Under the pieces are notes generated by a model that worked only from the letters and a program-made list of their open reading frames with translations, made no database searches and was not told the origin of the DNA. DNA of 14,106 nucleotides, taken from Chitinophagaceae bacterium (lineage in GTDB: Bacteria > Bacteroidota > Bacteroidia > Chitinophagales > Chitinophagaceae). The stretch lies in the NCBI GenBank assembly GCA_019747455.1, contig JAIEQT010000641.1, positions 1-14,106 on the forward strand, in the 5' to 3' direction. Numbering within the stretch: position 1 is the stretch's first letter; every line of letters starts with the position of its first letter. Positions 1 to 13,998 of this stretch are shown piece after piece. A program made the translations under genes and the position numbers.

Positions 1-582
1 AAACCTGAAACCAAATTAAATATTCAAATTAGAGCAACCATAGAACAATATATTTTAACCTTGCAAAAGCTTATCAATATGCCAACTGAACTTGAAAAAG
101 AGTTATTAGATTTAATTGGGAAACAAGAAATATATAAGATTATACCTCAACTACATGACGCGTATCATACGTTCAGAAGGCGTACCTATGAGAAATTTTT
201 TGAATCACTTAATAAAAACAAAGAAAATCAAATTGAATTTAACTTCGAAGATCAACCTACGCTGAAAGGTGAAATTTTAGTTGATAAAGATGGCCTATAT
301 TATGGATATACGCTTGCAGTTGATAAAAATATATACGATGCAGGTAAAGAGTATTATTGGAAGATATTAAAAGAAGTTGATTCCCGTTTTTACACAAACG
401 ATATTTACGTTGGATGGATATACTCAAATATTTTTAAAAATTTTTATGACGACGACAAAGTCAATATTCTTGAATTGGAAAAGAGTGAAGAATCAGTTGA
501 TAAATTAATAAATGCCGTCATTGATGATTTTAAGGAATTAAATAATAAAATCAAAAACAAGATTCAATCTAAAAACAAGTAA
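1..582 (+). CDS. C-terminal end of an unidentified protein, possibly a PD-(D/E)XK nuclease family member (5' truncated)
   Basis: The frame is open from base 1 with no convincing start, so the gene begins left of the window and 193 residues are visible. A TTG at 61 could be read as a start, but the upstream in-frame codons read as ordinary protein (a helix containing IRATIEQYI), so I treat it as internal. The visible part is highly charged and mostly helical. It has a central tract around LYYGYTLAVDKN and an acidic-then-Lys-rich tail ending in KNKIQSKNK. The helical layout and tail recall the region after the nuclease core in PDDEXK_4-type proteins. No catalytic D/E-x-K motif is visible, so that assignment is weak. 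It converges on the metallophosphoesterase with a 15-bp gap and no obvious terminator hairpin. Confidence 0.75.
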   Translation, partial: KPETKLNIQIRATIEQYILTLQKLINMPTELEKELLDLIGKQEIYKIIPQLHDAYHTFRRRTYEKFFESLNKNKENQIEFNFEDQPTLKGEILVDKDGLYYGYTLAVDKNIYDAGKEYYWKILKEVDSRFYTNDIYVGWIYSNIFKNFYDDDKVNILELEKSEESVDKLINAVIDDFKELNNKIKNKIQSKNK

Positions 583-597
583 GTATGTTTTCTCTAC

Positions 598-1158
598 TTA
601 TGTCACATTAAAAAACTTAACGATGTCGACTTTTAAGCTTAACGAATTATATTTGTGTGCATGCCCAAAAAAATGATACAACGGCTTTTGGTATTGTACA
701 AAATCTAATAATATTGGGCAGCCGATACCATCATCCAAAATGCCTTTGGGTGGAACATGCGAGAGTAAAATATCAATTGGCTTATTGATTATTTCGGGCA
801 TTTCGAATAAATTTTCTTGGGATTTTATTCCGTAAATAGTTAGCCCAAAAACGTTGATACATTTATTCTCTAACAAAATCACATTCTTAGGGACTATATG
901 TCTTGCTGCTTTAGGTTCAAACACAAAGGGATAATCGTGGTTGCCACTTACAAAGAGCCTTTTCTTGGCTGGAAGCGCAGAAAACCACTCAAAGAAATCC
1001 AGTATTTCTTTTTCATCTCCATTATTGCAAATATCACCGCAATGAATGACAATATCACAATTGGGAATTACACAGTTTCTGTGTTTCCCATGCGTATCAG
1101 ATAATGCAACTATCACAACACCCTTATGTATAATTTTAACCAAATTATATTGATTCAA
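598..1158 (-). CDS. MPPED-like calcineurin-type metallophosphoesterase
   Basis: This 186-aa protein has the full metallophosphoesterase motif series: SDTHG (D21, H23), HCGD (D42), GNHDY (N73, H74), LSHVPP (H134) and FGHAH (H166, H168). These residues normally hold two metal ions and hydrolyse a phosphomono- or phosphodiester. The stretch PPKGILDDGIGCP followed by the GHAH box is typical of the MPPED1/MPPED2 branch, many of which act on cyclic nucleotides or other small phosphodiesters. The substrate here is unknown. The TTG start at 1158 overlaps the upstream P-loop gene by 14 bp, which suggests translational coupling as the last gene of the leftward arm. Another TTG at 1143 is also possible, and the first motif lies downstream of either. 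There is no signal peptide, so it is cytoplasmic. Confidence 0.88.
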   Translation of the reverse strand: MNQYNLVKIIHKGVVIVALSDTHGKHRNCVIPNCDIVIHCGDICNNGDEKEILDFFEWFSALPAKKRLFVSGNHDYPFVFEPKAARHIVPKNVILLENKCINVFGLTIYGIKSQENLFEMPEIINKPIDILLSHVPPKGILDDGIGCPILLDFVQYQKPLYHFFGHAHKYNSLSLKVDIVKFFNVT

Positions 1159-1738
1159 CAGTTAATAGGGTATCTCCAAAATTCGCAAATTTTTCATTCA
1201 GGTACGGCGGTCGAGTTAGCGTTATCTCTAAAAATGAAAAATCATCTGCAAACTTCGACACTGTATGTTTTAAGAGTTTGACAGGCTCGTCGCTCTGTAT
1301 AATATACCGCATTCGGGTATCATCATACAATGCTTTCGATAAACATACCAAAAAAAGATATTTAGCGAACCTATTCTTTAAAGCATCTATTTGATCAGTA
1401 AAAAGTACAGAAGCTGGTAACATATTAAAAATAAAATTTTCTCCTTCGGTAGCTTCACTTTTCACTCTATTCTGATGATAAAGGTTTACCAAACACCCAT
1501 CGGCTTTTAGCTTACTAACTAAAAAAGGAGTTAGCTGCCCTAATGAAACATAAGCCAATGATTGTGGTTTATCACTGTTTAATGCCATGTATTTTAAAAT
1601 CTTCAACATAAAAGCAGTTTTGCCAACTTTTTTGTTTCCACGAACTATGATAATCGTTTTGGGTCGCTGAAAAAGTTGAGCCATTGGCTCAAAATCACTG
1701 AGCTCTTCCCAATCAAGTGGTTGTATGATATATTCCAT
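1145..1738 (-). CDS. Small RecA/DnaB-like P-loop NTPase
   Basis: This 197-aa protein has a clear Walker A motif, GNKKVGKT (residues 34-41), after a hydrophobic beta strand (TIIIV). Behind it comes AFMLKILKYMALN, then a strand reading LAYVSLGQLT. The order P-loop, helix, 'A-x-V-S-L' strand recalls the DnaB/KaiC branch of RecA-fold ATPases, where the second strand usually reads FSLEM. Here the acidic residue after SL is replaced (SLGQ). The remainder (about 75-197) does not show a canonical DnaB Walker B by eye. Family placement is inference; nucleotide binding is well supported. The start ATG overlaps the end of the AAA gene by 26 bp, so the two are almost certainly co-translated partners. It occupies the same position relative to its AAA gene as the FtsK-like gene does in the rightward arm. 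Confidence 0.85.
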   Translation of the reverse strand: MEYIIQPLDWEELSDFEPMAQLFQRPKTIIIVRGNKKVGKTAFMLKILKYMALNSDKPQSLAYVSLGQLTPFLVSKLKADGCLVNLYHQNRVKSEATEGENFIFNMLPASVLFTDQIDALKNRFAKYLFLVCLSKALYDDTRMRYIIQSDEPVKLLKHTVSKFADDFSFLEITLTRPPYLNEKFANFGDTLLTVESI

Positions 1739-2804
1739 TTTGATGATAGATATCTGCTAAAAGCATCGGTTTATTAATTTTGGTATTGAAGCCTAACTTA
1801 TCCGATAATTGCTGCGCTTTGTTCGTTTCCAATTCTTTAAATTGATATTGTGCTATAAGTCTTCCTTTTCGCAGTAATGCACTATCGATTTTTGAAATGT
1901 CGGTATTAAACGTACAAATGAATTGTACATTCAAACAATCGGCTAGTAATCCGTCGGTAATGTTTAGTAATACATTCACTGGTGAATTCACTTGCTCTCC
2001 CCTATCCAGAATGATACTTTCGGCATCTTCAATAACAAAAACAGTATTGGGTTTGCTCATGAAAATGCCAATTAATTTAGGGTTGATAATGGTGCTGATC
2101 ATCGATTGGGGTAAGAAAACTACTTCCTTATCAATAGCGGTGATCAAGAATTTAATATACGAGGTTTTACCAGTTCCGGGGCTGCCGTGTAACAATACCA
2201 ATCCCTTATCCTGCTTATTATTGAGTCGCTGCAGAATCAGTTGATGAACTTCATCAAAATCATCATTATAATTTTCTTGTATGCTATTGATAGACGGCTT
2301 TACCTGCAATGGTTTAAATTCATGGGAGCAATCGTGATAAATCAATAAGGATATTTCAGGTTTATCAGGTACTTTTTGTTTTTTCTGCGTTTGAATAAGC
2401 GCAATAATTTCATTGACCAATTCAACCTTTGTTTGTCTATACAAAAACTTGACTATACCAGATTCCATTTGAAAATACACAATTAGATCTTCAAACAAGA
2501 AATAAAAAATATCGGCTACCTCTGGTTTCAAGAAAGCGTCGTAATTACATTTTGCATAGTAACAGTCGTAAATTTCTTTTTGGTAGGTGATAAGAAATAG
2601 CAATACGGCCTCCATGCAATTGATTCCTGTTTCAATCACATAGTTTGGAATTGACCTATAGTAATAGCTATAGAGAAGTAGTTCGTTTAAATAGAAAGCT
2701 TTTTTGTTGGAAAATAGATCCAAAACAATCTCTTCATTGGAACTCACTTGCCTATACTTAGCATAGTCAATTGACATTTTATTAAATAAATCATCTAACT
2801 CCAT
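1713..2804 (-). CDS. BCS1-like AAA ATPase (leftward arm paralogue)
   Basis: This 363-aa protein has an N-terminal region (1-170) with no recognised motif and an AAA module from about 175. Visible motifs are Walker A GSPGTGKT (207-214), a Walker B-type strand VFVIEDAE (255-262), the LLNITDGLL helix, sensor 1 in CTFNTD (N300), and the arginine-finger segment SALLRKGR (308-315). The IED Walker B, the 'LLN-x-x-DG' helix and the 'ALLRKGR' box place it in the classic AAA clade closest to BCS1-type proteins. Such proteins remodel or translocate protein substrates as hexamers. No membrane helix is evident. It lies 3 bp after the UDG-like gene and overlaps the next gene by 26 bp. It is similar along its whole length to the AAA protein at 4841-5980, including an FEDLI motif in the N-terminal region. 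Substrate unknown. Confidence 0.92.
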   Translation of the reverse strand: MELDDLFNKMSIDYAKYRQVSSNEEIVLDLFSNKKAFYLNELLLYSYYYRSIPNYVIETGINCMEAVLLFLITYQKEIYDCYYAKCNYDAFLKPEVADIFYFLFEDLIVYFQMESGIVKFLYRQTKVELVNEIIALIQTQKKQKVPDKPEISLLIYHDCSHEFKPLQVKPSINSIQENYNDDFDEVHQLILQRLNNKQDKGLVLLHGSPGTGKTSYIKFLITAIDKEVVFLPQSMISTIINPKLIGIFMSKPNTVFVIEDAESIILDRGEQVNSPVNVLLNITDGLLADCLNVQFICTFNTDISKIDSALLRKGRLIAQYQFKELETNKAQQLSDKLGFNTKINKPMLLADIYHQNGIYHTTT

Positions 2805-2807
2805 ATA

Positions 2808-3611
2808 CTATTTTATTAATGCTAATAAATGGTTCACATGCGTTTCCGCATTTCCAAAACGTGGTCTTGTAGTAACAATAATTTTTGTTCCCTTGAATTC
2901 TTCGAAAGCAACAATATTTGTCAATGATTGATCGTATTCAATATCCCTTGTTTGCAATAATGACTTAAATGGCGCCCACCAACTGTAATTGGTTAGTACA
3001 ATACAATACTTAGGTTGTAATTCTTCTATCTCAAGCGCGATTAATTGAGCAGCGATGTCAAGTTGACTCACCTTCAGAAATGAATTTGGGTTTTCCCCAT
3101 CGGGAGCAATTTTGTATAAATTAGACCATGCTATTTTTTTCGACCAGTCCCAACTGCTTCTATTGTATCCGTAATAATCACTAGTTAACTTATATACAGC
3201 TTTCCAAAAAAAAGAGCGAAAAGTCCTATAGTCGGTTTTGTTATCATAGAATTTTTTTGCAGTTGGGTCAGCTACAATTTGATCATACGTATCGTTGCTC
3301 CATCGAACATTTACCCAATCGAGCGGAGAATGACCGAGTTTAGCAAAGTAGCGATTAGAAGCAGTTATGCTTTCTTTGATTTGTGTTTCACTAACAGCAT
3401 CATATACATCAAAACCTGATGCCCAACCGTTAAGTGCTTGACCATAAAAAAGTAAATCACATGGTTCTTTTTGCCGTACTCCTAAACTGGGGTAAAAATT
3501 TGTGAACCAGCCATTACTATTCCAATTCTCTTGAAGTGAGTTTTGAAACTGTAGCATATTTTCCACAAATAAGCTATCATACTCACTCGACATTTTATTA
3601 TAGATTTCCAT
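2808..3611 (-). CDS. Uracil-DNA-glycosylase-fold-like protein (GQALNGW type)
   Basis: This 267-aa protein is not a canonical UNG but follows the order of UDG-superfamily elements. A hydrophobic strand runs into CDLLFYGQALNGW (51-63), where the family has a GQ/GE-type motif I. Next come aromatic helices with FRSFFWKAV (131-139) and a strand-turn WSNLYKIAP (162-170), resembling the 'WNNLxK' strand of UDG-like proteins. The hydrophobic strand ELQPKYCIVLTN (197-208) matches the 'L-x-P-x-x-I-V-x-x-G' strand. A C-terminal TTRPRFGNAETH (247-258) sits where motif II (HPS/HPR) lies. Proteins with a GQETNGW-like motif are a divergent UDG-like group whose function I do not know. Nucleic-acid binding or base excision is inference. 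It lies 3 bp upstream of the AAA gene in the same operon. The start at 3611 is ATG; an in-frame ATG at 3593 is also possible. Confidence 0.82.
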   Translation of the reverse strand: MEIYNKMSSEYDSLFVENMLQFQNSLQENWNSNGWFTNFYPSLGVRQKEPCDLLFYGQALNGWASGFDVYDAVSETQIKESITASNRYFAKLGHSPLDWVNVRWSNDTYDQIVADPTAKKFYDNKTDYRTFRSFFWKAVYKLTSDYYGYNRSSWDWSKKIAWSNLYKIAPDGENPNSFLKVSQLDIAAQLIALEIEELQPKYCIVLTNYSWWAPFKSLLQTRDIEYDQSLTNIVAFEEFKGTKIIVTTRPRFGNAETHVNHLLALIK

Positions 3612-3638
3612 AATATTTAATTCTGCTTTTATTAAGAA

Positions 3639-3860
3639 CTAGCTTATCTTAATTACGTCGAAATAGGTTGACGACAATAAGCCTGTTTTTTTAAGATCAA
3701 ACCCATAAACTCTTTGAAAGGCTTCAGCTACAGCGAGACCCCCATTTTCCACGAAAGGACTCGATGAATTTTTTGTGACTACTTGAGCCGTCATCCCTTT
3801 TTCAAGGCGAACTCCATTTGAAATTGCTGTGCGGTTGGCTGTTACTTTAACTAGTGGCAT
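3639..3860 (-). CDS. Small DUF6140-like protein
   Basis: This 73-aa protein begins MPLVKVTANRTAISNGV, continues with RLEKGMTAQVV, and ends with the pattern NGGLAVAEAFQRVYGFDLKK followed by a short strand ending VIKIS. That layout (an N-terminal beta pair with 'NGV-R-x-EKGM', then 'NGG-x-x-V-x-x-AF-x-R-YG-x-D-x-KK') matches my memory of small Bacteroidota proteins named DUF6140. Their function is unknown, and the assignment is from recall only. It is the first gene of the leftward arm, 27 bp ahead of the UDG-like gene, and starts 69 bp from the divergent WYL gene. It has no signal peptide or transmembrane segment. As a small leader protein it could be a structural or regulatory subunit of the arm it opens. 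Confidence 0.8.
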   Translation of the reverse strand: MPLVKVTANRTAISNGVRLEKGMTAQVVTKNSSSPFVENGGLAVAEAFQRVYGFDLKKTGLLSSTYFDVIKIS

Positions 3861-3873
3861 ATTATATTTTTTA

Positions 3874-3881
3874 CAAAGGTT
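3874..3881 (-). promoter_or_regulatory. Possible -7 box for the leftward operon
   Basis: Read on the minus strand this is AACCTTTG, one mismatch from the Bacteroidota -7 consensus TAnnTTTG. It lies 13 bp upstream of the DUF6140-like start. No clear TTTG -33 element is present. The place where one would be is covered by the palindrome at 3890-3910. Confidence 0.3.
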
Positions 3882-3889
3882 AAAAACGT

Positions 3890-3910
3890 AAGCGCCATAC
3901 TATGTCGCTT
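3890..3910. promoter_or_regulatory. 21-bp palindromic candidate operator of the WYL regulator
   Basis: The sequence has the form AAGCG-n-CATA-n-TATG-n-CGCTT. It is a perfect inverted repeat apart from one internal mismatched pair and the central base. It lies between the divergent WYL and DUF6140-like genes. Its centre (3900) is 19 bp from the near edge of the -7-like box on each strand (3919-3926 and 3874-3881), so it covers the -33 region of both promoters. Dimeric WYL regulators of defence loci (BrxR, CapW) bind inverted repeats next to their own genes, so autoregulation plus control of the leftward operon is a reasonable inference. Confidence 0.6.
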
Positions 3911-3918
3911 TACTTATT

Positions 3919-3926
3919 TACTTTTG
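3919..3926 (+). promoter_or_regulatory. Candidate -7 box of the WYL gene promoter
   Basis: TACTTTTG matches the Bacteroidota -7 consensus TAnnTTTG exactly. The expected -33 position overlaps the palindrome at 3890-3910. Transcription would start within a few bases of the ATG at 3930, which would give a leaderless or nearly leaderless mRNA if this box is used. Confidence 0.42.
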
Positions 3927-3929
3927 AAC

Positions 3930-4835
3930 ATGCCAAAAAATATTTATTCAGCGCGTTACGCGCTAATCCTTCGCCGATTAGAACAAAGTCCGGCTACTTA
4001 TCAAGAAATTGCTGATTTTTTAGACATCGAATCTGAGATCCACGAGCGAACTTTCTCTGCATCCCAGAGAACTTTACAAAGAGATATCAAGGATATAGCA
4101 AGTCAATTGAATATTGAAATTCTAAATAACAGATCGACAAAAAAATATTATATCGCATCAGAAGATGGAATCAGTGAAAGCAGCCGTCGACTCTTAGATG
4201 CTTATCAAATTAACTCCTTCATTCAGTCTGCAAGTTTTTTTTCGAATAAAGTATTCCTTGAAAAAAGAGCCTCGCATGGATTAGAGTATTTTCATCCTCT
4301 ACTGACTGCAATAAACAAAAAAAGGATTATAAACTTCATGTACTATGAATATTGGTCGGAACTGGAAACACAAAAAAAAATACATCCATTAGCATTAATG
4401 GAAGCGCAGGGTCGCTGGTATCTTATTGGCATAAACCCACCCAAAAAAGAGCTAGAAAGATTTGGTTTAGATAGAATAAGTGAATTGAATATACAGGATC
4501 AGAAGTTCCGTGAAAAATATTCAATCGATATACAGAAATATTTTGAGTCGTGCTTTGGCCTACTACAGAGTGAAACAAAACTCATTGAAAAGGTTGAATT
4601 AAAGTTTAACTACGAACAAGGCCTATACGTTGATAATTATCCTTTACATCACTCACAAACGGAAATAGCAAGGGAAGTTGGTTATATTATTTTTTCCTTT
4701 GAGCTACAAATCAGTTATGATTTTTTACAAGCGCTACTCGCTTTCGGCTCGGAGCTTGAGGTACTAAAACCAGCTTCATTAAGAAAAGAGATGAAAAATA
4801 TGTTGGAGAACACTTTACGGAACTATAAAAAATAA
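3930..4835 (+). CDS. WYL-domain transcriptional regulator
   Basis: This 301-aa protein has the standard layout of WYL regulators. A winged helix-turn-helix spans about 1-75 and includes TYQEIADFL and SQRTLQRDIKDI. A WYL domain spans about 120-195, with the signature GRWYLIG (W163) and the strand RFGLDRISEL. A C-terminal WCX domain ends with DFLQALLAFGSELEVL-x-P, a typical WCX match. WYL domains bind ligands, often nucleic acid or nucleotides, and many of these proteins repress defence or DNA-damage genes. I prefer the ATG at 3930 over the TTG at 3924, because the TTG lies inside the -7 box and family members commonly begin MPKN. It is divergent from the leftward operon and ends 5 bp before the second AAA gene. 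A run of nine A residues (4372-4380) lies inside the WYL domain coding region. Confidence 0.93.
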   Translation: MPKNIYSARYALILRRLEQSPATYQEIADFLDIESEIHERTFSASQRTLQRDIKDIASQLNIEILNNRSTKKYYIASEDGISESSRRLLDAYQINSFIQSASFFSNKVFLEKRASHGLEYFHPLLTAINKKRIINFMYYEYWSELETQKKIHPLALMEAQGRWYLIGINPPKKELERFGLDRISELNIQDQKFREKYSIDIQKYFESCFGLLQSETKLIEKVELKFNYEQGLYVDNYPLHHSQTEIAREVGYIIFSFELQISYDFLQALLAFGSELEVLKPASLRKEMKNMLENTLRNYKK

Positions 4836-4840
4836 ACGTC

Positions 4841-5980
4841 ATGGTTTGGCGCCGACTGCACGTTTCTTGCACTCAAAAAATGAATCCCAACTTACGAGAT
4901 ATTAGACTGAAAGAACTTGCAAAAGCTATGAGTGCCAAAAACCAGTTTATAGATATTTTTGGCAGCAATAATATTCATATAGACGGTTGCAAGCAATTCA
5001 TAGCCTTTCACTATGCTATTCCCAATATAATAAACTTAGTTCATATAGACTGTACAAAAGCGAGGAATTGGTTCGATGAAACCTATTTTACAAAAATCAA
5101 AGAGATCACATATTTTAAAAAAAATACAGGCAAGGAAACACCAAAGATTGAATATATTCTCTATCATTCATTTGAAGACCTTATAATTAATTTCTATATT
5201 GCTGAAAATGAGATTAAGTTATTTTTTAAAAAAACGGATCCGAAACTTATTGAAAAAATTACTGCCGAGTTAAGGAAATATAGTAAAAGATATCGCCATC
5301 GAAAAAAAAGAACCATTGAGTTGTTAACTAATGATTCCCGTGGACTATCGCTTGCCTCACTTGAAGTATCTAAACCAAAACTTTCAATAGAAGATAATTA
5401 TAATGATGATTTCAAAGAAATAAATAGCATTATCATTAAACGACTTTCACAGAAAAATGATAAGGGAATCGTTCTATTACACGGCAAGCCCGGAACAGGG
5501 AAAACTACTTATATACGGTATTTACTAGCCTCACTAAAAAAGACGGTTATATTTTTACCGTTAGAATTAGTGAATTCGCTAACAGGGCCCGATTTAACAA
5601 CATTTCTATTAAAGCATACCAACTCTGTACTTGTAATTGAAGATGCGGAGAAAATTATCCAATCTCGAGATTCAACGAGGAGTTCAACGGTGTCGGGTCT
5701 ATTGAACATTTCAGACGGCTTACTTTCCGATTTCCTATCTATTCAAATCATCTGTACTTTCAATACAGACATTTCCAAGATAGATCATGCACTTCTTAGA
5801 AAGGGGAGATTAATTGCCATGTATGAGTTCAAAGAGTTGGAAGTAAGTAAAGCACAGGCACTATCGCATAAACTTGGTTTTTCAACAATTATTGATAGTC
5901 CAACTACGCTTACTTCCATATACAACCAAAGAGAAAAAGACTTTGAGAATCTCAAGAGACCCGCAATTGGATTCAAATAG
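4841..5980 (+). CDS. BCS1-like AAA ATPase (rightward arm paralogue)
   Basis: This 379-aa protein has an N-terminal region (about 1-180) with a Lys/Arg-rich stretch around 146-158, then an AAA module. The motifs are Walker A GKPGTGKT (215-222), Walker B-type VLVIEDAE (263-270), the LLNISDGLL helix, sensor 1 in CTFNTD, and HALLRKGR (316-323). It parallels the protein at 1713-2804 throughout: both have ENYNDDF/EDNYNDDF before the module, CTFNTDISKID at sensor 1, and FKELE-x-x-KAQ after it. The N-terminal FEDLI motif is also shared. They are therefore full-length paralogues, not a shared domain only. The start is uncertain: ATG 4841 lies 5 bp after the WYL gene, and ATG 4880 (residue 14) has an A-rich upstream typical of Bacteroidota. 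It overlaps the FtsK-like gene. Confidence 0.92.
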   Translation: MVWRRLHVSCTQKMNPNLRDIRLKELAKAMSAKNQFIDIFGSNNIHIDGCKQFIAFHYAIPNIINLVHIDCTKARNWFDETYFTKIKEITYFKKNTGKETPKIEYILYHSFEDLIINFYIAENEIKLFFKKTDPKLIEKITAELRKYSKRYRHRKKRTIELLTNDSRGLSLASLEVSKPKLSIEDNYNDDFKEINSIIIKRLSQKNDKGIVLLHGKPGTGKTTYIRYLLASLKKTVIFLPLELVNSLTGPDLTTFLLKHTNSVLVIEDAEKIIQSRDSTRSSTVSGLLNISDGLLSDFLSIQIICTFNTDISKIDHALLRKGRLIAMYEFKELEVSKAQALSHKLGFSTIIDSPTTLTSIYNQREKDFENLKRPAIGFK

Positions 5981-6647
5981 TCTGCATAATAAACAGTCGA
6001 GTTTACTTGTAAAAATTGGAAAGAATAGCCTTGGAGAAGCTGTAGAAGTAGATATATCAACTTACCCATTTTTATTAGTCACAACAGATGAAAGAGGATT
6101 ATCAACTCGGTTTATTGATGAATGCTGCATTAATGTATTCAATCAATCGAAAGGTTCAATTATCTATCGCAGCACCCGACAGAGTAAAGTTAAATATAGG
6201 GTAGATGAAAGCTTTGCTATCCGATATTTCTTTGAGGACGATCCCTCAATATCGAGCTATTCTTCAAAAATGCATTTCATTGATTCAGTATTAAGGCTTG
6301 TCAAATCTGATACTTCAAATACTCCTTGCTTCTTGATTATCGACGATATACGGACTTTTCTTGGAAATAAGCAGTCTACGTTACTACTTGCGATTATTAA
6401 AATAATCCTTCAAAGCCATAGTCATCATTTCCATGTCATTCTTGGAAGTGCATTGCCTTATGCAAATTTATTTAACCAAATAAATTTCAAGCACAAAGCG
6501 TTCGCCAATATCTTAGTTTATAACAATATCACTTTACCTCAATATTTAAAACAATTAGCAGGAGAACTTGTATTTACCACAGAGGGATTGATTTTTTTAA
6601 AAACCCCAGGTAGTTTAGGTTTTGAAAAGTTTTATCCTTATCATTAG
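5967..6647 (+). CDS. FtsK/HerA-like pseudo-ATPase lacking Walker A
   Basis: This 226-aa protein follows the FtsK motor-domain layout closely. It has a strand LLVKIGKNSLGEAVEVDIS (as in 'IxxGxDxxGxPxxxDL'), then FLLV where FtsK reads LLVAG-TTGSGKS. Here the P-loop reads TTDERGLS (39-46), without the catalytic lysine. Later elements persist: a Walker B strand FLIIDDI (122-128), a strand HFHVILGSALP in place of 'GIHLILATQRP', the segment INFKHKAFANILVY in place of 'IKANIPTRIAFKV', and a terminal TEGLIFLKTPGSL in place of 'GDMLFLPPG'. The alignment is from memory of FtsK. I infer a non-hydrolysing paralogue that may act as a scaffold or inactive ring subunit. I chose TTG 5967, which overlaps the AAA stop by 14 bp. 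The ATG at 5874 would add 31 residues unlike FtsK. Confidence 0.75.
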   Translation: MDSNSLHNKQSSLLVKIGKNSLGEAVEVDISTYPFLLVTTDERGLSTRFIDECCINVFNQSKGSIIYRSTRQSKVKYRVDESFAIRYFFEDDPSISSYSSKMHFIDSVLRLVKSDTSNTPCFLIIDDIRTFLGNKQSTLLLAIIKIILQSHSHHFHVILGSALPYANLFNQINFKHKAFANILVYNNITLPQYLKQLAGELVFTTEGLIFLKTPGSLGFEKFYPYH

Positions 6648-6694
6648 ATTGAATATTTTTTCGAATAGTTGATAACATTTACTAAATTTACCCT

Positions 6695-6970
6695 ATGAAA
6701 GTGTTGGGTGTAAAATATAAGGGTGATTATATGATTCAAGTATCTTTCCAAGATGGCATAGAAGGTGTTATTGATCTAAGCGATTTAGTAGATAAAGGTA
6801 TTTTCATTGAATTAAAGGATACACAAAAATTTTCGACCGTTTATACAACCGGCTATTCAATAGCTTGGTCGGAAGAACTTGAAATAGATGCCGCAAATAT
6901 TTATGCTGAAATAACTGGTAAGCATCCTATGACAGCATTTACACCTACTACAATGTATGCCTCAAATTAG
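6695..6970 (+). CDS. DUF2442 domain protein
   Basis: This 91-aa protein matches the DUF2442 pattern: an N-terminal strand MKVLGVKY, then YMIQVSFQDG followed by GVIDLSDLV, a short helix with F-x-x-x-x-LKD, and the characteristic WSEELEIDA. DUF2442 proteins are small and commonly adjacent to DUF4160 proteins, and the pair has been suggested to behave as a toxin-antitoxin or regulatory module. It overlaps the DUF4160 gene by 14 bp, so the two are probably co-translated. It begins 47 bp after the FtsK-like gene on the same strand and may share its transcript. Confidence 0.88.
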   Translation: MKVLGVKYKGDYMIQVSFQDGIEGVIDLSDLVDKGIFIELKDTQKFSTVYTTGYSIAWSEELEIDAANIYAEITGKHPMTAFTPTTMYASN

Positions 6971-7217
6971 TTATTTTTTAGGCGTTATTATTAGGATGTT
7001 CTATAGAGATCACAACCCTCCGCATTTTCATGCAGTTTACGGTGATTATGAAGCCTTGATTGATATTGCAAAGAATGAGCTCATAAGTGGTTATTTGCCT
7101 CCGCGAGTTCTTGGACTTGTTATTGAATGGACGGCAATTCATCAAAACGAACTAATGGACAATTGGGAACGAGCAAAAAATCAGAATCCACTGCTTCCGA
7201 TAGCCCCGTTGGTGTAA
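6957..7217 (+). CDS. DUF4160 domain protein
   Basis: This 86-aa protein carries the DUF4160 signature. It starts MPQISYFLGVIIRMFYRDHN, followed directly by PPHFHAVYGDYEA with its two histidines, then GYLPPRVLGLVIEW and a C-terminal helix with ELMDNW. The family is small and widespread in bacteria and is usually paired with DUF2442, as here. Biochemical function is unproven, and the toxin-antitoxin interpretation is inference from pairing. The start ATG at 6957 lies inside the end of the DUF2442 gene (14 bp overlap). The gene ends 50 bp before the signal-peptide Met of the histidine kinase. Confidence 0.9.
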   Translation: MPQISYFLGVIIRMFYRDHNPPHFHAVYGDYEALIDIAKNELISGYLPPRVLGLVIEWTAIHQNELMDNWERAKNQNPLLPIAPLV

Positions 7218-7238
7218 TAACAGTACTTACTGAATTTC

Positions 7239-7266
7239 TTTGTACCTTACTTATCCAAGATTTTTG
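7239..7266 (+). promoter_or_regulatory. Weak promoter candidate for the sensor histidine kinase
   Basis: A TTTG at 7239-7242 and GATTTTTG at 7259-7266 (one mismatch from TAnnTTTG) are separated by 16 bp, short for this promoter class. The box ends one base before the ATG at 7268, so a start from it would be essentially leaderless. An imperfect direct repeat of GTAC(c)TTACT (7223-7231 and 7242-7251) overlaps it. Confidence 0.22.
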
Positions 7267-7267
7267 T

Positions 7268-9649
7268 ATGAAAAAAATACTGCTTGCGGCATTTATATTA
7301 TTCGCTTGCACATTACAAGCACAGATAAAAGTACGTTTCGAGCTTACAGATAAATCAATTTTTTCGCACGATAGCATATTCATAGCCGGTAGCTTCAACA
7401 ATTGGGATGAAAAAGCAAATACCAATTATTTACTCTATCCCTTACAATCAAAACAAAAATCAATCACGCTTTCGCTAAAACCCGGAACTTATCGTTATAA
7501 ATTTCATCGTGGTAATTGGATATCTGTTGAAAAAACGGCTGCTAATGAAGAGGTGATAGACAGAGAAATAAAGATTAGCCGAGATACCGTTTTAAAAGAT
7601 CAAGTGTTTTCTTGGAGAGATGAGTTTTTAAAGGAAAAATGGCAATTGATTGCTGCTGAAAAGCAGGATACACAAACAGTAAAATATCTTTCCGCCATTG
7701 CAAGCTACTATGCATTTGACGGACAAAATAACAATATCGATTCTGCAGGATATTATGCCAATAAGTGCTTGAATTTAATTGCTGAGATTAAAAAAAGAAA
7801 GGAAACGAGTAACATAACAGTAAATAGCCTCAATATTATTTTGTTCAATACTACAGATGTATCCGCTTCTTTATTTCACAGCTTAGGTAATTACACGAAA
7901 GCACTGGAACTAAGGTTTGAAAACCTTGCGCTGGCAGAGAAATTAAATGAACCCTTTCAGGTATTTTGGGCATTACAGTATGTTACAAACGAATATGCTG
8001 CCATGAAAGATTACGAAACCTGTTTGGTTAATGCAAAGCGTTTAGATTCTGTAGTGCAACAATTAAAAAACTCGCAGTATTATGAATTTGCAATTGCACA
8101 AGTAAATAGTTTATACGCAACTACTTATCTAGGATTAAATAAACCAAAACTGGCGATAAATCATGCAAGAACCATGCTTCAAGTAAATCCTAAAATATTA
8201 AATGAAGGCAATACTACCATCGCTCAATACTTACTTGGTAAAGCATTTTTAGGAACCGGGCAGTTCGACTCATCACGTTACTATTTAAAGCTTGCAAGAG
8301 ATCGGGTGTTAACAAAGTTTGTGCTTTTTAGATCGCAGGTAGACATTGAATTGAGCAGGGTTTTTTTAGCAACAAATAAATTAGACTTGGCATTAACATA
8401 CGGGCGAGCTGCCTATCAATACTTTTTAACGAATGCTAGCGAAATAAGGAGGCTCGGAGAGAGTGCGTTATATTTTCAATCTGAAGTAACGCCAATACTT
8501 TCCAAAATTTTTAAGGCCCGGAATAATACAGATAGTGCTTACTACTATTTGTCTTTATCAAATTCATTGAAAGATAGTTTATACAACAAAGAGAAAATAA
8601 CGCAATTTCAAAACCTATCTTTTAATGAGTCTGTAAGAAAAAAGCAATTAGCTGATGAAGAAATTCAAAATCAAAAAGCTTTTAGAACCAAGCTCGTGTA
8701 TTGGGGGTTGGGAATTGGATTAGCAGGATTTTTATTAATCAGTATTATTCAATTTAGAAATAATCAACAAAAACAAAAAGCTAATAGAGTTTTGGAAACA
8801 ACACTAACCGAACTTAAATCCACCCAATCTCAACTGATTCAATCCGAGAAGATGGCTAGCCTGGGTGAACTCACAGCGGGTATTGCACATGAGATACAGA
8901 ACCCGTTGAATTTTGTAAATAATTTTTCTGAGGTGAGTCGGGAATTTATCGATGAGCTAAAACAAGAGAGGGTTAAGGAGGAAGGTGTAAGGGATAAGGT
9001 GTTGGAGGAAGAATTATTAAGTGATATAGATGCGAATTTAGAAAAGATCAACCATCATGGTCAACGAGCAGCGTCGATAGTTAAGGGAATGCTGCAACAT
9101 AGCAGAAGTAGCAGTGCCACCAAAGAACTAACGGATATCAATGCTTTGTGTGATGAATATTTAAGACTGGCGTATCATGGATTAAGAGCCAAAGACAAGA
9201 GCTTTAATGCAGCGTTTAAAACGGAGTTTGATGAAAGTATACCTAAAGTGAATATCGTACCACAGGATATGGGCAGGGTGGTATTGAACTTGATTAATAA
9301 TGCGTTTTTCGCCGTGAGCCAGCGTCAGAACGTCGGAACGTCAGAACGGGAGCCTAATGACGACCCGACGATCCGACGTTCTGACGAAGAATACACCCCA
9401 ATGGTAATCGTATCAACACGAAAAAAAGAGGACACCATCGAAATCACCGTCTCCGACAATGGTACCGGTATTCCTAATGAGATCAAGGAAAAGATCTTCC
9501 AGCCCTTCTTTACCACCAAGCCAACCGGACAAGGAACGGGACTAGGATTAAGCTTGGCATATGATATCGTTACCAAAGCGCATGGAGGGAAGCTAACGGT
9601 GGAGAGTGAACAAGGAAGGGGAACAACCTTTAAAATTGAAATCCCGTAA
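7268..9649 (+). CDS. TPR sensor histidine kinase with an N-terminal AMPK-CBM48-like domain
   Basis: This 793-aa protein begins with a signal peptide (MKKILLAAFILFACTLQAQ), which fixes the start at 7268; the frame is open further upstream, into the DUF4160 gene. A sensor domain follows (about 22-105) with FIAGSFNNWDEK and LKPGTYRYKFHRG, as in AMPK/CBM48 glycogen-binding modules. A helical TPR-type region runs to about 470, then a membrane helix (476-496), a coiled coil, and a HisKA domain with GIAHEIQNP (His541). The HATPase has an N box (NLINNA, N678), DNGTGIP (D730) and GQGTGLGL (754 onward). Phosphate would go to a separate response regulator; none is next to it. The INHHGQRAASIVKGMLQHSR stretch marks a Bacteroidota family. 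Residues 686-707 are encoded by an inserted palindrome. It converges on rho with a 5-bp gap. Confidence 0.93.
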   Translation: MKKILLAAFILFACTLQAQIKVRFELTDKSIFSHDSIFIAGSFNNWDEKANTNYLLYPLQSKQKSITLSLKPGTYRYKFHRGNWISVEKTAANEEVIDREIKISRDTVLKDQVFSWRDEFLKEKWQLIAAEKQDTQTVKYLSAIASYYAFDGQNNNIDSAGYYANKCLNLIAEIKKRKETSNITVNSLNIILFNTTDVSASLFHSLGNYTKALELRFENLALAEKLNEPFQVFWALQYVTNEYAAMKDYETCLVNAKRLDSVVQQLKNSQYYEFAIAQVNSLYATTYLGLNKPKLAINHARTMLQVNPKILNEGNTTIAQYLLGKAFLGTGQFDSSRYYLKLARDRVLTKFVLFRSQVDIELSRVFLATNKLDLALTYGRAAYQYFLTNASEIRRLGESALYFQSEVTPILSKIFKARNNTDSAYYYLSLSNSLKDSLYNKEKITQFQNLSFNESVRKKQLADEEIQNQKAFRTKLVYWGLGIGLAGFLLISIIQFRNNQQKQKANRVLETTLTELKSTQSQLIQSEKMASLGELTAGIAHEIQNPLNFVNNFSEVSREFIDELKQERVKEEGVRDKVLEEELLSDIDANLEKINHHGQRAASIVKGMLQHSRSSSATKELTDINALCDEYLRLAYHGLRAKDKSFNAAFKTEFDESIPKVNIVPQDMGRVVLNLINNAFFAVSQRQNVGTSEREPNDDPTIRRSDEEYTPMVIVSTRKKEDTIEITVSDNGTGIPNEIKEKIFQPFFTTKPTGQGTGLGLSLAYDIVTKAHGGKLTVESEQGRGTTFKIEIP
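9323..9386. repeat. Palindromic repeat element inside the kinase HATPase coding region
   Basis: A perfect 15-bp inverted repeat has arms at 9323-9337 (CGTCAGAACGTCGGA) and 9372-9386. Pairing continues imperfectly inward for about 7 bp. The left arm is also the start of a tandem run of an 8-mer, CGTC(A/G)GAA, with three copies at 9323-9346. It replaces a short variable linker between the N box and the strand before the DNG motif and adds about 20 polar residues (RQNVGTSEREP and on) without breaking the frame. The arrangement resembles coding-embedded palindromic elements such as Rickettsia RPEs. Dispersal elsewhere in this genome is unknown. Confidence 0.85.
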
Positions 9650-9654
9650 CCTCC

Positions 9655-11286
9655 TTACCTATTCATACTTGCTAAAAACTCTTCGTTGTCTTTTGTGCCG
9701 CGCATTCGTTTGAGCAGTTCTGTCATAGCTTCTTCCGGATTCATATCATTGAGGAATAGCCTTAAGATATTCATGCGACTGAGAATATCTTTATCTAATA
9801 ATAAATCATCTCTACGGGTAGATGATCCAACTAAATCGATAGCAGGGAAAATACGTTTGTTGGCCAACTTGCGATCTAGCTGTAATTCCATATTACCGGT
9901 TCCTTTAAATTCTTCAAAGATCACTTCATCCATTTTACTACCTGTTTCAATTAAGGCGGTGGCAAGAATAGTAAGCGATCCTCCGTTCTCAATTTTACGC
10001 GCAGCTCCAAAAAATTGTTTTGGTTTTAATAGCGCATTTGCTTCCACACCACCACTTAATACTTTACCACTAGAAGGTGCTACGGTGTTATGTGCACGTG
10101 CTAAACGCGTGATAGAATCGAGTAGTATAACCACATCATGTCCGCACTCCACTAAGCGTTTTGCTTTTTGTAAAGCAATAGAAGAAACTTTTACGTGCTT
10201 CTCGGCGGGCTCATCGAATGTAGAGGCAATTACCTCTGCTTTTACACTGCGCTCCATATCGGTAACCTCTTCTGGTCGCTCATCAATTAACACCACCATC
10301 AAATAGCATTCCGGATGATTGGCGGCAATCGCATTAGCTACTTCTTTGAGCAACATGGTTTTACCCACTTTAGGTTGCGCAACAATCAACCCACGCTGAC
10401 CCTTACCAATTGGTGTAAACAAATCAATGATGCGTGTGCTATAGTTGTTAGGGGTAGTAAATAAATTTAATTTCTCATAGGGAAATAATGGTGTGAGATA
10501 ATCGAAGGGAACACGATCTCGCACTTCATCGGGGCGCTTACCATTGATATAATCAACCTTTAACAGCGCGAAATATTTTTCCCCTTCTTTGGGTGGACGA
10601 ACACTACCTTGAACGGTGTCGCCGGTTTTAATACCAAATAATTTTATTTGAGAAGGAGATACATATACATCATCCGGAGAGGATAAATAGTTATAATCAG
10701 AGGAGCGTAAGAATCCATAACCATCTGGCATCATTTCCAAAACCCCTTCACTGGGTATTACGCCTTCAAATTCTATGTTAAAAGCAGGCTCTTTGCGCTG
10801 CTGTGGCTGAAATCTGTTTTTTTCCTGGGTTTGTGATTCAGCGGCCTGTGTTTGCGCTTCTTGATTTTCGCTGGCTTCCAGTGTTTGGATAATAGCAGCA
10901 GCAATATGTTCGGTTAGATCGGGAGCATTGCTTTCCGTATCTCCGGCAGATATGCTTCCTGTTTCCGGTTTTGCCGCCGGCTTCGCTCCTTTTTTAGGAA
11001 CTGCTTTTTTAATAGGGCGACTATTACGAGACGGAGCCTCTGGGGCTTCTTGCATTATTTCGGCTTCTTCTGTTCCATTGGCCGTTTTAACAGTTACTGG
11101 TCGTTTTGCTTTGGTAGTTTTTTTCTTATCGTCTTTCACTTCACTAGCTTTTACGGCTTGGTTATCAAGAATTTTATAAATCAAACCTTGTTTATCGAGT
11201 TTTTTGGTGCCGGTAATTTTGAGCTGCTCAGCAATATCGAGGAGCTCGGGCAATAACATGTCGTTTAATTGCAGAATGTCGTACAT
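9655..11286 (-). CDS. rho: Transcription termination factor Rho with a long disordered insert
   Basis: Rho is a hexameric RNA-dependent ATPase that ends transcription. The N-terminal helical domain ([20 protein letters not shown]) fixes the start at 11286. The frame stays open to 11412, but those upstream 42 residues do not fit Rho. Residues about 45-168 are a Lys/Ala/Glu/Pro/Gln-rich low-complexity insert, which explains 543 aa against about 420 in E. coli. The cold-shock-like RNA-binding domain contains GYGFLRSS (189-196). The motor has Walker A AQPKVGKT (K309), Walker [15 protein letters not shown], the Q-loop region [20 protein letters not shown], and the R-loop region GTGNMEL. Rho of Bacteroides thetaiotaomicron has a comparable disordered region linked to phase separation. 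The gene is divergent from asnS with a leader of about 220 nt if the box at 11512-11519 is used. Confidence 0.97.
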
Positions 11287-11428
11287 AAATTCAAAAGGAT
11301 TAAAATAACTAAGTAAAAAACCACTCGAACCAGAAAATTTGTTGGATAATTTGGAAGAGATGACTGAAAACGAGGGGTTATAAAATTCGCTAGTCAGTTG
11401 ATTCCGATGCAATTATACACTCTTTTTC

Positions 11429-11458
11429 TAAAAATCAAGCATAAATACATGATTTTTA
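11429..11458. repeat. AT-rich inverted repeat in the rho leader
   Basis: Arms TAAAAATCA (11429-11437) and TGATTTTTA (11450-11458) are perfect 9-bp complements with a 12-nt spacer. In the rho transcript this could form a weak A-U hairpin about 145 nt before the start codon. As DNA it could be a regulator site. It lacks a GC stem, so it is not a convincing intrinsic terminator. Confidence 0.5.
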
Positions 11459-11473
11459 AGTGAGAAAATCAAT

Positions 11474-11509
11474 TTTGATGGGCTTTTAGACACCATTCGA
11501 GTACTTTTG
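11474..11509 (+). promoter_or_regulatory. Candidate asnS promoter
   Basis: TTTG at 11474-11477 and an exact TAnnTTTG box (TACTTTTG, 11502-11509) fit the Bacteroidota -33/-7 pattern. The 24-bp spacer is somewhat long. The predicted start near 11515 gives an asnS leader of about 140 nt. The -7 box overlaps the palindrome TTTTGCGCAAAA (11505-11516). Confidence 0.42.
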
Positions 11510-11511
11510 CG

Positions 11512-11519
11512 CAAAATTA
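11512..11519 (-). promoter_or_regulatory. Candidate rho -7 box
   Basis: Read on the minus strand this is TAATTTTG, an exact TAnnTTTG match. It is the reverse face of the same palindrome used by the asnS box, separated from that box by 2 bp. No clear TTTG -33 element is seen upstream on this strand. If used, the rho leader is about 220 nt. Confidence 0.35.
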
Positions 11520-11522
11520 GTA

Positions 11523-11626
11523 GTTACGGTTTTCACGATTCGAGATTCGGGTTAATAAGGTAGTTCTGGTTTACTTTGCTACTAAGTTTACCAATATCTC
11601 GAAATCCAAAACTCGTAAACCGTAAC
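11523..11626 (+). repeat. Nested inverted repeats in the asnS leader
   Basis: A perfect 10-bp pair, GTTACGGTTT (11523-11532) and AAACCGTAAC (11617-11626), encloses a collinear perfect 8-bp pair, TTCGAGAT (11539-11546) and ATCTCGAA (11596-11603). The leader RNA could therefore form a long branched hairpin ahead of asnS. The DNA could equally be a degenerate dispersed repeat. A further 8-bp pair (11521-11528 with 11642-11649) competes with the outer arm. Confidence 0.6.
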
Positions 11627-11646
11627 TCGTAACCCGTATCACGTAA
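11612..11646 (+). repeat. Tandem 7-mer run before asnS
   Basis: There are five consecutive 7-base units: CTCGTAA, ACCGTAA, CTCGTAA, CCCGTAT, CACGTAA. The core CGTA is invariant. The run ends 9 bp before the asnS ATG and provides several alternative right arms for pairing with the GTTACG and GGGTTA sequences at 11523-11554. Confidence 0.7.
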
Positions 11647-11655
11647 CTAAAGTGT

Positions 11656-13107
11656 ATGTTTAATAAAAGAATAAAAATAAAAGCCTTGCTTGAGCAGGGG
11701 CAACCAGGTACAGAAGTAGTTGTTATGGGATGGGTGCGTAGTTTTCGTAATAACCAGTTTATAGCGCTGAATGATGGTAGTACGAACAACAATATTCAGG
11801 TAGTTGCCGAATTGGGACTATTAGATGAAACCACACTTAAGCGAATCACAACCGGAGCTTCGCTTCGGGTAGAAGGAAAGCTCGTTACCTCCTTGGGGAA
11901 AGGTCAGCGCGTAGAGGTGAAAGCTGATAAGGTTGAGATTTTGGGAGATAGTGATGCAGAGAAATACCCCCTTCAACCTAAAAAGCATAGCCTAGAATTT
12001 TTAAGAGAAATAGCCCACTTGCGTTTTCGTACAAACACCTTCGGTGCCGTTTTTCGTATCCGTCATTCTCTTGCCTTTGCTGTTCATCAATTTTTTAATG
12101 ATAAAGGGTTTGTGTATTTACACACGCCAATCATTACAGCCAGTGATGCAGAGGGGGCGGGCGAAATGTTTAGAGTAACCACCTTGCCGATGGATGGCAC
12201 AGCCCCCAAAAAAGAAGATGGCACCATAGATTATGGAGAAGATTTTTTCGGTAAGAGTACAAACTTAACAGTAAGCGGACAACTAGAAGGAGAGCTAGGT
12301 GCCATGGCTTTTTCGGAGATATATACTTTTGGCCCTACATTTCGCGCAGAAAATTCCAATACAACCCGCCACCTGGCTGAATTTTGGATGATTGAGCCTG
12401 AAATGGCTTTTTACGATATTGAAGACAATATGAATTTGGCGGAAGAATTCATTCAATACCTCATTCGTTATGCTATGGAGCATAATAAAGAAGACCTGGA
12501 ATTTTTAGACCAACGATTAGCAGAAGAAGAGAAACAAAAGCCACAACAAGAGCGTGCCGAAATGGGCTTGTTGGAGAAATTGAATTTTGTGTTGAACAAT
12601 CAATTTGAAAGAATAACCTACACGGAAGCCATTCAAATTTTATTGGATAGTCCGGCCTATAAAAAGAAAAAATTCAAATATGAAGTTAGTTGGGGTATCG
12701 ATATGCAGAGTGAGCATGAGCGATATTTGGTAGAGAAGCATTTTAAAAAACCGGTGATCGTAACCGGATATCCGGCTAAGATCAAAGCATTTTATATGCG
12801 CCTGAATGATGGCTGTGAGCCCGGAAAAGAAACGGTGGCAGCCATGGATATTTTAGCGCCGGGCATTGGTGAAATTGTGGGTGGAAGTCAGCGGGAGGAG
12901 CGGTTGGAAAAACTTGAAGCGCGTATGAAAGAGATGCATATACCGGCAGCAGAAATGAGTTGGTATTTGGATACACGTAGGTTTGGAACAGTACCTCATG
13001 CAGGGTTTGGATTAGGTTTTGAAAGAATGGTACAGTTTGTAACGGGTATGACCAATATCCGCGATGTGATTGCCTTTGCGCGTACCCCGAAGAACTGCGA
13101 ATTTTAA
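11656..13107 (+). CDS. asnS: Asparaginyl-tRNA synthetase
   Basis: This 483-aa class II synthetase charges tRNA-Asn with asparagine in the cytoplasm. The N-terminal OB-fold anticodon-binding domain contains [21 protein letters not shown]. The catalytic core has motif 2 ([22 protein letters not shown]230) and motif 3 ([11 protein letters not shown]456 and R457). The C-terminus [14 protein letters not shown] corresponds to the usual 'DVI-x-FPR-x-x-x-x-x-x-F' ending of AsnRS. The length is close to the family norm of about 465. Separation from AspRS and LysRS rests on the '[11 protein letters not shown]' motif and the C-terminus. The start ATG follows an unusual repeat-rich leader. The DUF3050 gene follows 56 bp downstream on the same strand. 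Confidence 0.97.
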
Positions 13108-13163
13108 TTTCCCTAGAACTATTTGTAACCCTGAAGCGTATATATACACGATTTGGATATTGT

Positions 13164-13949
13164 ATGGATAGGATTGAGCAAATGAAGCAAACGCTTCAAC
13201 CCGTTCGAGAAAAATTAATTTCTCACCCCCTTTATCATTCTCTTCAGAGCCTGGAAGATTTACAGCTATTTTCAGCAAGCCATGTATTTGCGGTATGGGA
13301 TTTTATGAGTTTATTGAAAGCGCTACAAATGCGTCTTACTTGTACTACCGTGCCTTGGGTGCCTGTAGGGAATGCAGAAACCCGATACCTGATTAATGAA
13401 ATTGTATTGGGCGAAGAGAGCGATGTAGATCCGGGTGGACATCGCACAAGTCATTTTGAATTGTACCTACAAGCTATGCATCAGATGGGTGCGGATACTA
13501 AGCCCATCAAAAATTTTATAGAGGCGATCCGCAGGGGAGAAAAAAGCGAAGAGGCGCTGAAACGCTTATCGGTGAGTGAAGGGATTCGCGATTTTGTTCG
13601 GTTCACGCTGGAAATAGCCACCCAGGCTCCTACGCATGTGCAGGCAGCCGTTTTCACATTCGGGCGAGAAGATCTGATCCCTGATTTATTTATGGGCATA
13701 GTGCGCGAGTTATCTGATTTGCATCCTGAAAAATTGGGCTTGTTTCGGTATTATTTGGAGAGGCATATTGAAGTAGATGGTGAACATCATAGTAAGTTGG
13801 CTATGCAAATGGTTAGTTTACTTTGTGATAATCAACCCCATTATTGGCAAGAAGCTATGGATGCAGCCAATGCGGCGCTGCGCTATCGCTTGCGCCTCTG
13901 GGATACGATTTATGCGTCTTTACCACTTCGAGCCGCTGCGGCCTTATAG
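13164..13949 (+). CDS. DUF3050 family protein (haem-oxygenase-like fold)
   Basis: This 261-aa, all-helical protein matches DUF3050. It has an N-terminal helix ending HPLYHSLQSLEDL, then SASHVFAVWDFMSLLKALQ (H40, D46), PWVPVGN, and NEIVLGEESD. SHFELYLQAM (H97, E99), FTFGREDLIPDLF (E169) and RHIEVDGEHHSKLA (E203, D205, H208, H209) follow. The family belongs to the haem-oxygenase-like/TenA superfamily. The late D-x-x-x-H spacing and scattered Glu/His resemble haem-oxygenase-like diiron oxidases, so a dinuclear metal site is plausible but unproven. No signal peptide. It lies 56 bp downstream of asnS; an upstream TTTG (13122-13125) and the palindrome GTATATATAC (13138-13147) may belong to its own promoter. 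Substrate unknown. Confidence 0.9.
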   Translation: MDRIEQMKQTLQPVREKLISHPLYHSLQSLEDLQLFSASHVFAVWDFMSLLKALQMRLTCTTVPWVPVGNAETRYLINEIVLGEESDVDPGGHRTSHFELYLQAMHQMGADTKPIKNFIEAIRRGEKSEEALKRLSVSEGIRDFVRFTLEIATQAPTHVQAAVFTFGREDLIPDLFMGIVRELSDLHPEKLGLFRYYLERHIEVDGEHHSKLAMQMVSLLCDNQPHYWQEAMDAANAALRYRLRLWDTIYASLPLRAAAAL

Positions 13950-13998
13950 AAAAAGTCACTCTTTCATGTGGATTATTTGTGAAAACCCCCTATTTTTG

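Follow-up and report, generated by a model that had tools for sequence, protein, structure and literature searches.

Two BCS1-core AAA ATPase genes with small partner genes around a WYL regulator gene in a Chitinophagaceae bacterium: a possible mobile defence locus

According to the accessible portions of the papers cited here, the WYL regulator BrxR is an inverted-repeat-binding repressor of a defence island (PMC9122601), PafBC binds single-stranded DNA (ssDNA) through two arginines of its WYL domain (PMC11804915), SiwR binds ssDNA likewise (PMC10693628), and a role in membrane-proximal assembly has been proposed for the BCS1 orthologues of jumbo phages (PMC7824862). This study analysed a window of 14,106 nucleotides from a Chitinophagaceae bacterium (assembly GCA_019747455.1, contig JAIEQT010000641.1, positions 1 to 14,106), in which two AAA ATPase genes, here called AAA1 and AAA2, lie on opposite strands around a single WYL regulator gene, of a regulator class that is frequently linked to phage defence, each AAA gene with a small partner gene directly behind it; a first-pass annotation of the window had described this arrangement, and the open reading frames (ORFs) bear it out. 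The accessible text of the literature covers WYL regulators, jumbo-phage BCS1 and other NTPase conflict systems and holds no such unit of AAA ATPase, small client and WYL regulator (PMC7159879, PMC7824862, PMC4012209, PMC9122601, PMC10693628, PMC11804915), and no description of one was found in the literature searched on prokaryotic BCS1-like AAA proteins with WYL or defence.

The reading we favour, and consider about an even call, is that this is an accessory island, mobile and composite in nature, which combines two modules of an AAA ATPase and its client with a WYL regulator and most likely serves in defence against phage or invading DNA. The module type would be a BCS1-core AAA ATPase with a small client encoded directly behind it, of which two copies have presumably been joined to the WYL gene at a divergent promoter.

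The recurrence of these parts was assessed in 53 AAA loci, namely the window, 38 loci from a search of 295 Bacteroidia genomes with AAA2 as the sole query, and 14 of the 15 best named loci. The class search placed the AAA family in 45 of the 295 genomes at E<=0.001, 35 of them at E<1e-30 (own genome included); of the 43 places below the latter threshold, 38 were fetched, and the other five hold longer AAA forms. Among the 80 named loci, 65 (L085-L149, matches of 5e-22 or weaker) were left out and L082 yielded no AAA ORF; some of the loci examined stop at contig ends. The AAA gene has a WYL gene no more than 3 kb away in 12 of the 38 class-search loci and 7 of the 14 named loci, as counted with a WYL profile whose sequences came from the window and nine loci of this kind, and therefore partly from the loci counted; the former is the fairer count because the named loci came from a profile that included WYL-linked members. 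Given 88 PF13280 domains in 99 genomes, or about 0.9 per genome of about 3.4 Mb, a WYL gene would be expected by chance in only about 0.1 of the 38 loci. The tie between WYL regulator and AAA gene that had been proposed for the window is therefore recurrent.

A small gene behind the AAA gene is a second recurrent feature. In 30 of 49 cases the gene that follows is on the same strand and no more than 60 bp away; for all genes of these loci taken together the figure is 246 of 707. Three of these 30 downstream genes encode WYL proteins, and two more are a fragment of the AAA gene itself in one case and the following AAA gene in the other; 22 of the remaining 25 encode proteins of at most 261 amino acids (aa). 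The downstream genes are mostly unlike one another, with one family common to L032 and L071 and another to L048 and L054. When 24 hand-picked downstream genes of other AAA loci were compared with FtsK, DnaB, AAA and right-partner profiles, the best match reached a probability of 8.3; motor-derived clients therefore appear to belong to the window and not to the module, and the idea of the partners as a general P-loop class was rejected on the same result.

Within the window, profile comparison upheld the earlier claim that each AAA gene overlaps a small P-loop-derived gene of a different type, DnaB-like on the left and FtsK-like on the right, and the two partners show no resemblance to each other. 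Residues 26-79 of the left partner match a DnaB alignment (hhalign probability 93.5, E 2.4e-7; FtsK control 0.1). Like the replicative helicase DnaB it keeps the P-loop segment, but it is alignable over those 54 residues only, so that neither a helicase remainder nor a whole RecA-type motor domain was recognised. A search of 5.8 billion proteins, which sees proteins of similar length that share short exact words, found only the left partner itself.

The right partner, searched alone, also found only itself. Its homologue at a locus of a same-genus genome (L224) is 22% identical (E 1e-12 in a single comparison), and a two-row profile of the pair retrieved 111 protein clusters, itself included, a few of them named from Sediminibacterium, Asinibacterium sp. 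OR53 and Hydrobacter. Alignment A7, with 31 rows from the two loci and 29 of the clusters, matched FtsK with a probability of 95.9 (E 5.1e-9, 229 columns; DnaB control 0.1), whereas the window protein alone reached 0.55; the FtsK link runs through the family. Pfam confirmed the identity of 3 of 12 FtsK rows and 2 of 6 DnaB rows. Against solved structures, the family matched YukB/EssC at 7.4e-5 and FtsK weakly at 0.068. A GK[ST] P-loop is absent from all 31 rows, and all 31 carry hhhhDD, with Asp in place of the Walker B Glu. As judged from these alignments, the right-partner family is an FtsK motor domain that has lost both ATPase motifs, a pseudo-ATPase. It resembles the FtsK/SpoIIIE/EssC motor domains over the 229 columns noted above, but lacks Walker A and, at about 235 aa, is too short for the other domains of FtsK. 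Its predicted structure was too poor to use when built on two sequences (predicted local distance difference test, pLDDT, 44.7) and reached 73.7 on 31. The family proper occurs in 3 of 19 same-genus genomes, own included, and none was found in viral contigs; at L245 a homologue stands without AAA or WYL gene in 19 kb. It is unusual that, as the alignments suggest, each AAA ATPase has a partner decayed from a DNA motor, and from a different motor in each case.

Both AAA proteins carry intact motifs that we take to be Walker A, Walker B, sensor 1 and the arginine fingers, and they are 45% identical across 309 aa (E 2e-87). Their description as full-length paralogues is right everywhere but at the C-terminus, since AAA1 is among the seven of 52 AAA-family proteins of 330-480 aa without the [IVLM]GF tail that the other 45 carry, a tail that is possibly a docking motif. 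The best solved match of the family profile is BCS1 (E 8.3e-11), followed by AFG2 (1.8e-8) and Cdc48 (1.3e-7). Among the Pfam matches listed for AAA1 and AAA2 (in the case of AAA2, the best 25 of 28) there is no BCS1 N-domain. Nor does hydropathy point clearly to a membrane helix: over roughly the first 200 residues its top 19-residue value is 1.5 for AAA1 and 1.2 for AAA2. Therefore, the family appears to join a BCS1-like core to a different N-terminal part; it resembles the mitochondrial AAA translocase BCS1, and with it the BCS1-like ATPases of jumbo phages, in its core and differs from BCS1 in both of these respects and in the small gene that usually lies directly behind. In a tree of 53 AAA proteins, AAA1 groups with ten sequences of other genomes and AAA2 falls outside (support 97/86), although the approximately unbiased (AU) test does not reject sisterhood of the two (p-AU 0.227). 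A recent tandem duplication of the AAA genes was discarded on the tree, with that reservation from the AU test.

The pair itself is rare. A single AAA gene is present in 47 of the 53 loci and more than one in six, namely the window, L047, L073 (where one of the two is broken or mis-called), L066, L067 and L069. In each of the five loci other than the window, the AAA genes all point the same way and the fetched stretch yielded no WYL gene; L066, L067 and L069, all from one genome (G273), are arrays of 2-4 AAA genes with the same core, mostly longer. None of the 52 other AAA loci has two AAA genes flanking a WYL gene. The first-pass annotation had proposed a single system with two AAA arms and asked whether the set stays together in Bacteroidota genomes; in the Bacteroidia genomes searched the parts mostly occur apart, to a large extent the outcome that it had itself named as telling against the proposal. 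A single conserved two-AAA system was rejected, as its parts are mostly not linked in relatives.

The remaining genes of the left arm are distributed in a similarly scattered way. Homologues of the UDG-like gene occur in 5 of the 295 genomes and of DUF6140 in 3 (own included in each), and the window genome alone is common to both. Elsewhere, the UDG homologue immediately precedes a WYL gene in L156 and is 2.7 kb away from one in L155, and L158 shows neither a WYL nor an AAA gene; L157 gave no UDG ORF, and row L153 of UDG alignment A11 is a wrong ORF and was left out. Two genes before the UDG homologue of L155 lies a gene for a 149-aa protein (L155:7357-7806) that matches only the N-terminal part of the AAA family (profile 13-136, E 4e-12) and may be a separate module or a remnant; the UDG there is therefore not wholly free of the AAA family. 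Additionally, at L155:9343-12968 an FtsH-like AAA plus M41 peptidase gene shares an operon with WYL and UDG-superfamily genes. A phosphoesterase homologue, 34% identical, lies directly downstream of the AAA gene in L072.

Among same-genus genomes, several of them incomplete, this AAA family was found in one of 18 others (G307). There, in L224, the AAA gene (5630-6712), a WYL gene (9084-10076) and the right-partner homologue (10349-11059) lie within 5.5 kb, in an order that differs from that of the window and with other genes interspersed; the right-partner homologue is divergent from the WYL gene and convergent with a UvrD-type helicase-nuclease gene (whole cluster 5630-14541). This cluster is the one sign that the parts of the right arm belong together. 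The rho-asnS pair beside the island is kept in all eight relatives examined, which were taken from the 23 other genomes that have a Rho match. Beyond rho, the genes of the window were matched in none of the eight, some of which share content there while others differ.

The features of the locus are collected in Table 1. The leftward unit runs from DUF6140 through the UDG-like gene, AAA1 and the left partner to the metallophosphoesterase, and the rightward unit from the WYL gene through AAA2 to the right partner, with 69 bp between the two divergent units and 5 bp between the WYL gene and AAA2.

Table 1. Features of the two divergent gene units, in window coordinates.
Feature	Position	Strand	Basis and remarks
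Metallophosphoesterase, calcineurin-like	598..1158	-	nearest solved relative MPPED2; PADLOC family PDC-S10
Left partner, 197-aa orphan	1145..1738	-	DnaB-like P-loop segment GNKKVGKT; remainder not alignable
AAA1, AAA ATPase, BCS1-like core	1713..2804	-	PF00004 E 1.7e-13; 45% identity to AAA2
Divergent UDG-superfamily-like protein	2808..3611	-	PF03167 E 0.016, below cut-off
DUF6140 protein	3639..3860	-	PF19637 E 1.4e-24
Divergent promoter region	3861..3929		imperfect inverted repeat GTAAGCG / CGCTTTAC at 3888-3913
WYL-WCX transcription regulator	3930..4835	+	PF13280 E 4.3e-13, PF25583 E 1.1e-9
AAA2, AAA ATPase, BCS1-like core	4841..5980	+	PF00004 E 1.5e-12
Right partner, probable FtsK-motor-derived pseudo-ATPase	5943..6647	+	start 5943 or 5967

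Of the overlaps reported earlier, the 26 bp shared by AAA1 and the left partner (1713-1738) are exact, while the 14 bp given for AAA2 and the right partner hold for a start at TTG 5967 and become 38 bp at TTG 5943, which gives the 234-aa length found in the database, or 107 bp at the first TTG of the ORF. The WYL gene starts at the conserved ATG 3930 rather than at TTG 3924, and its WYL and WCX domains both score above the Pfam cut-offs. The inverted repeat in the divergent promoter was picked out by eye and is absent from the list of a gapless repeat finder; it is a possible candidate operator. A promoter scan did no better than shuffled sequence (31 found against 28.5 expected). The G+C content of the island is mildly low, at 34.3% against a mean of 37.1% (standard deviation 1.9%; 75 windows of 3 kb from 20 of 650 contigs), with 9% of these windows lower. 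Among the additional genes reported for the leftward arm, metallophosphoesterase and DUF6140 are firm, whereas the UDG-like assignment is weak: the protein scores 15.7 bits against PF03167, under the 24.3 cut-off. Close relatives of this UDG-like protein were not found in viral contigs. The metallophosphoesterase matches PF00149 (E 2.2e-12), the PADLOC family PDC-S10 (E 1e-46) and MPPED2 (E 2.4e-13 over 64 residues), and it carries what are presumably the metal-binding motifs.

The genes that accompany the WYL gene in related loci point toward DNA conflict. Operon-mates were taken as same-strand genes with gaps below 150 bp, excluding WYL, AAA and the window (105 genes), and were compared with a distant control of 103 genes at least 6 genes away in the same loci (105 drawn, less two that the near set already contained). 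By Pfam, the operon-mates include 7 RNase_T exonucleases, 5 GmrSD_N, 4 PDDEXK_4 and 4 UDG proteins, against 2 GmrSD_N and at most one each of the other three in the control. PADLOC families matched at 1e-5 number 152 near WYL and 50 in the control, which are counts of families from redundant models and not of proteins. Because the loci were selected through AAA or WYL searches, the nuclease enrichment holds within that selection and is not a census; exonuclease, GmrSD, PDDEXK_4 and UDG-superfamily operon-mates lend support to a role in DNA conflict. In L032, L033 and L071 the order is AAA, small gene, exonuclease, GmrSD and WYL, and in L196 it is a longer AAA gene, exonuclease, GmrSD, a gene for a 746-aa protein and WYL; this operon of AAA, DEDDh exonuclease, GmrSD-type and WYL genes is a candidate restriction-like system in its own right.

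Among solved WYL proteins, PafBC gave the best whole-chain score against the regulator (5.9e-18, two WYL domains summed) and 7tzv the best single stretch (4.8e-13). The chain named BrxR scored 1.3e-4, and the WYL chain 7qfz, which may be a BrxR as well, scored 1.3e-7. The locus resembles BrxR and CapW in that related loci have a WYL regulator beside restriction-type genes, and differs in the weakness of the score to the BrxR-named chain and in the linkage of WYL to an AAA gene. With PafBC, DriD and SiwR it shares the WYL-WCX layout, and the top whole-chain score is that of PafBC. However, when the ligand arginines of PafBC and SiwR were placed on the WYL motif by spacing, which makes their positions inferred ones, the first proved to be missing in all ten aligned WYL proteins, where Gly or Ala stands instead, while the second Arg is kept; the motif reads FGL, FAL or YGL before [DE]R, against FRLDR or FRLSR in PafBC and SiwR. 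The ligand may therefore differ from that of the ssDNA-sensing regulators.

The AAA family extends well into viruses. Homologues were found in 52 of 50,697 phage records, some of which call them ATPase or BCS1, and in at least 80 viral contigs (loci L246-L325), 32 of these 80 exceeding 100 kb. At L246, on a contig of 217.7 kb, the AAA protein is 46% identical over nearly its full length. No WYL or right-partner homologue was found in the 80 viral AAA loci. Plasmid records gave five partial AAA matches.

Combined, these results suggest how a defence island of this kind might work. The WYL protein would control both operons and would detect DNA stress or phage attack through a nucleic-acid or nucleotide signal, and each AAA ring would hold, remodel or thread its own client. 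The motor-derived clients may act on replication or translocation machinery, the right one being unable and the left one unlikely to work as a motor, and the UDG-like protein and the phosphoesterase could be add-on nucleic-acid or nucleotide effectors. A more elaborate version is highly improbable. In it the partners would be motor decoys that mimic DnaB and FtsK in catalytically dead or incomplete form, and each would be watched over by a dedicated AAA ring; a phage factor aimed at the host motor would bind the decoy in its place and so trigger the AAA protein, which would unleash the DNA-acting genes of the locus. Several observations weigh against a role in defence. The AAA family is common in viral contigs and is therefore by itself no proof of host defence, and 26 of the 38 class-search loci have no WYL gene within 3 kb. 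Metabolic genes, one each, are also among the WYL operon-mates, and PADLOC matches occur in the distant control set too. Among the 10 ORFs of the window, PADLOC gave no strong match beyond PDC-S10, generic WYL models and a Cas3c model, which matches the WYL protein at 2.4e-9; PDC-S10 is a candidate label only, and PDC-S10, PDC-S26 and PDC-S48 were not found by name in the literature searched. The earlier statement that the locus could not be matched to a named system agrees with this survey, which detected no complete named PADLOC system in the 10 ORFs.

Other explanations account for part of the same evidence. The genes could be a chance neighbourhood at a variable site beside rho-asnS, with no shared function beyond two operons of an AAA gene and its partner, a view that is unlikely without being far-fetched: past rho the window genes go unmatched in the eight relatives, UDG and DUF6140 parts are found separately, and G+C is lower than the mean, but the gene overlaps are tight, one divergent promoter lies between the units, the linkage of WYL and AAA is far above chance, and AAA, WYL and an FtsK-like gene come together again in L224. 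Rather unlikely as well is a DNA-damage response operon of the PafBC/DriD kind, not directed against phage, in which the WYL protein would sense ssDNA and the locus would repair or process DNA. The rank of PafBC as best-scoring solved WYL protein and the DEDDh exonuclease and UDG genes among WYL operon-mates elsewhere are consistent with such an operon, whereas the loss of the first ssDNA-binding arginine (at its inferred position) in ten of ten WYL proteins, and a gene set that is patchy, unlike core repair, argue against it.

A dedicated two-armed system, in which AAA1 and AAA2 form a mixed ring, would explain the symmetric layout around one regulator and the intact ATPase motifs of two proteins at 45% identity, and at least two AAA genes are also present in L047, L073 and the arrays L066, L067 and L069. 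It is nonetheless quite unlikely, given that those five loci are all same-strand and without WYL in the fetched stretch, that 47 of 53 loci have one AAA gene, that UDG, DUF6140 and phosphoesterase homologues occur apart from the AAA pair, and that the tree separates AAA1 from AAA2, even if sisterhood is not rejected. The presence of the family on at least 80 viral contigs, along with the assembly role proposed for jumbo-phage BCS1 in the accessible text (PMC7824862), might instead mark the AAA genes as phage-derived assembly chaperones stranded in the host; the lack of WYL and right-partner homologues at the 80 viral loci makes this very improbable, as does the finding that no phage structural gene was recognised among the 10 window ORFs with Pfam and NCBIfam.

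Under the favoured reading of an accessory defence island, the broader interest lies in a recurrent Bacteroidota unit, a BCS1-core AAA ATPase with a changeable small client and often a WYL regulator, which can occur alongside restriction and exonuclease genes and has its ATPase in common with large phages, and in the identification of a family of probable FtsK-derived pseudo-ATPases. If the ATPase does control its clients, the unit would open a way to study how ring ATPases are combined with exchangeable effectors in conflicts of bacteria; the decoy version, if true, would bring a guard-decoy immune logic for DNA motors to bacteria.

Directly past the right arm, a DUF2442 gene overlaps a DhiT-like gene at 6695-7217 (86.3 bits, with a model cut-off of 100), and this overlapping pair is likely, by its sequence matches, a toxin-antitoxin pair.

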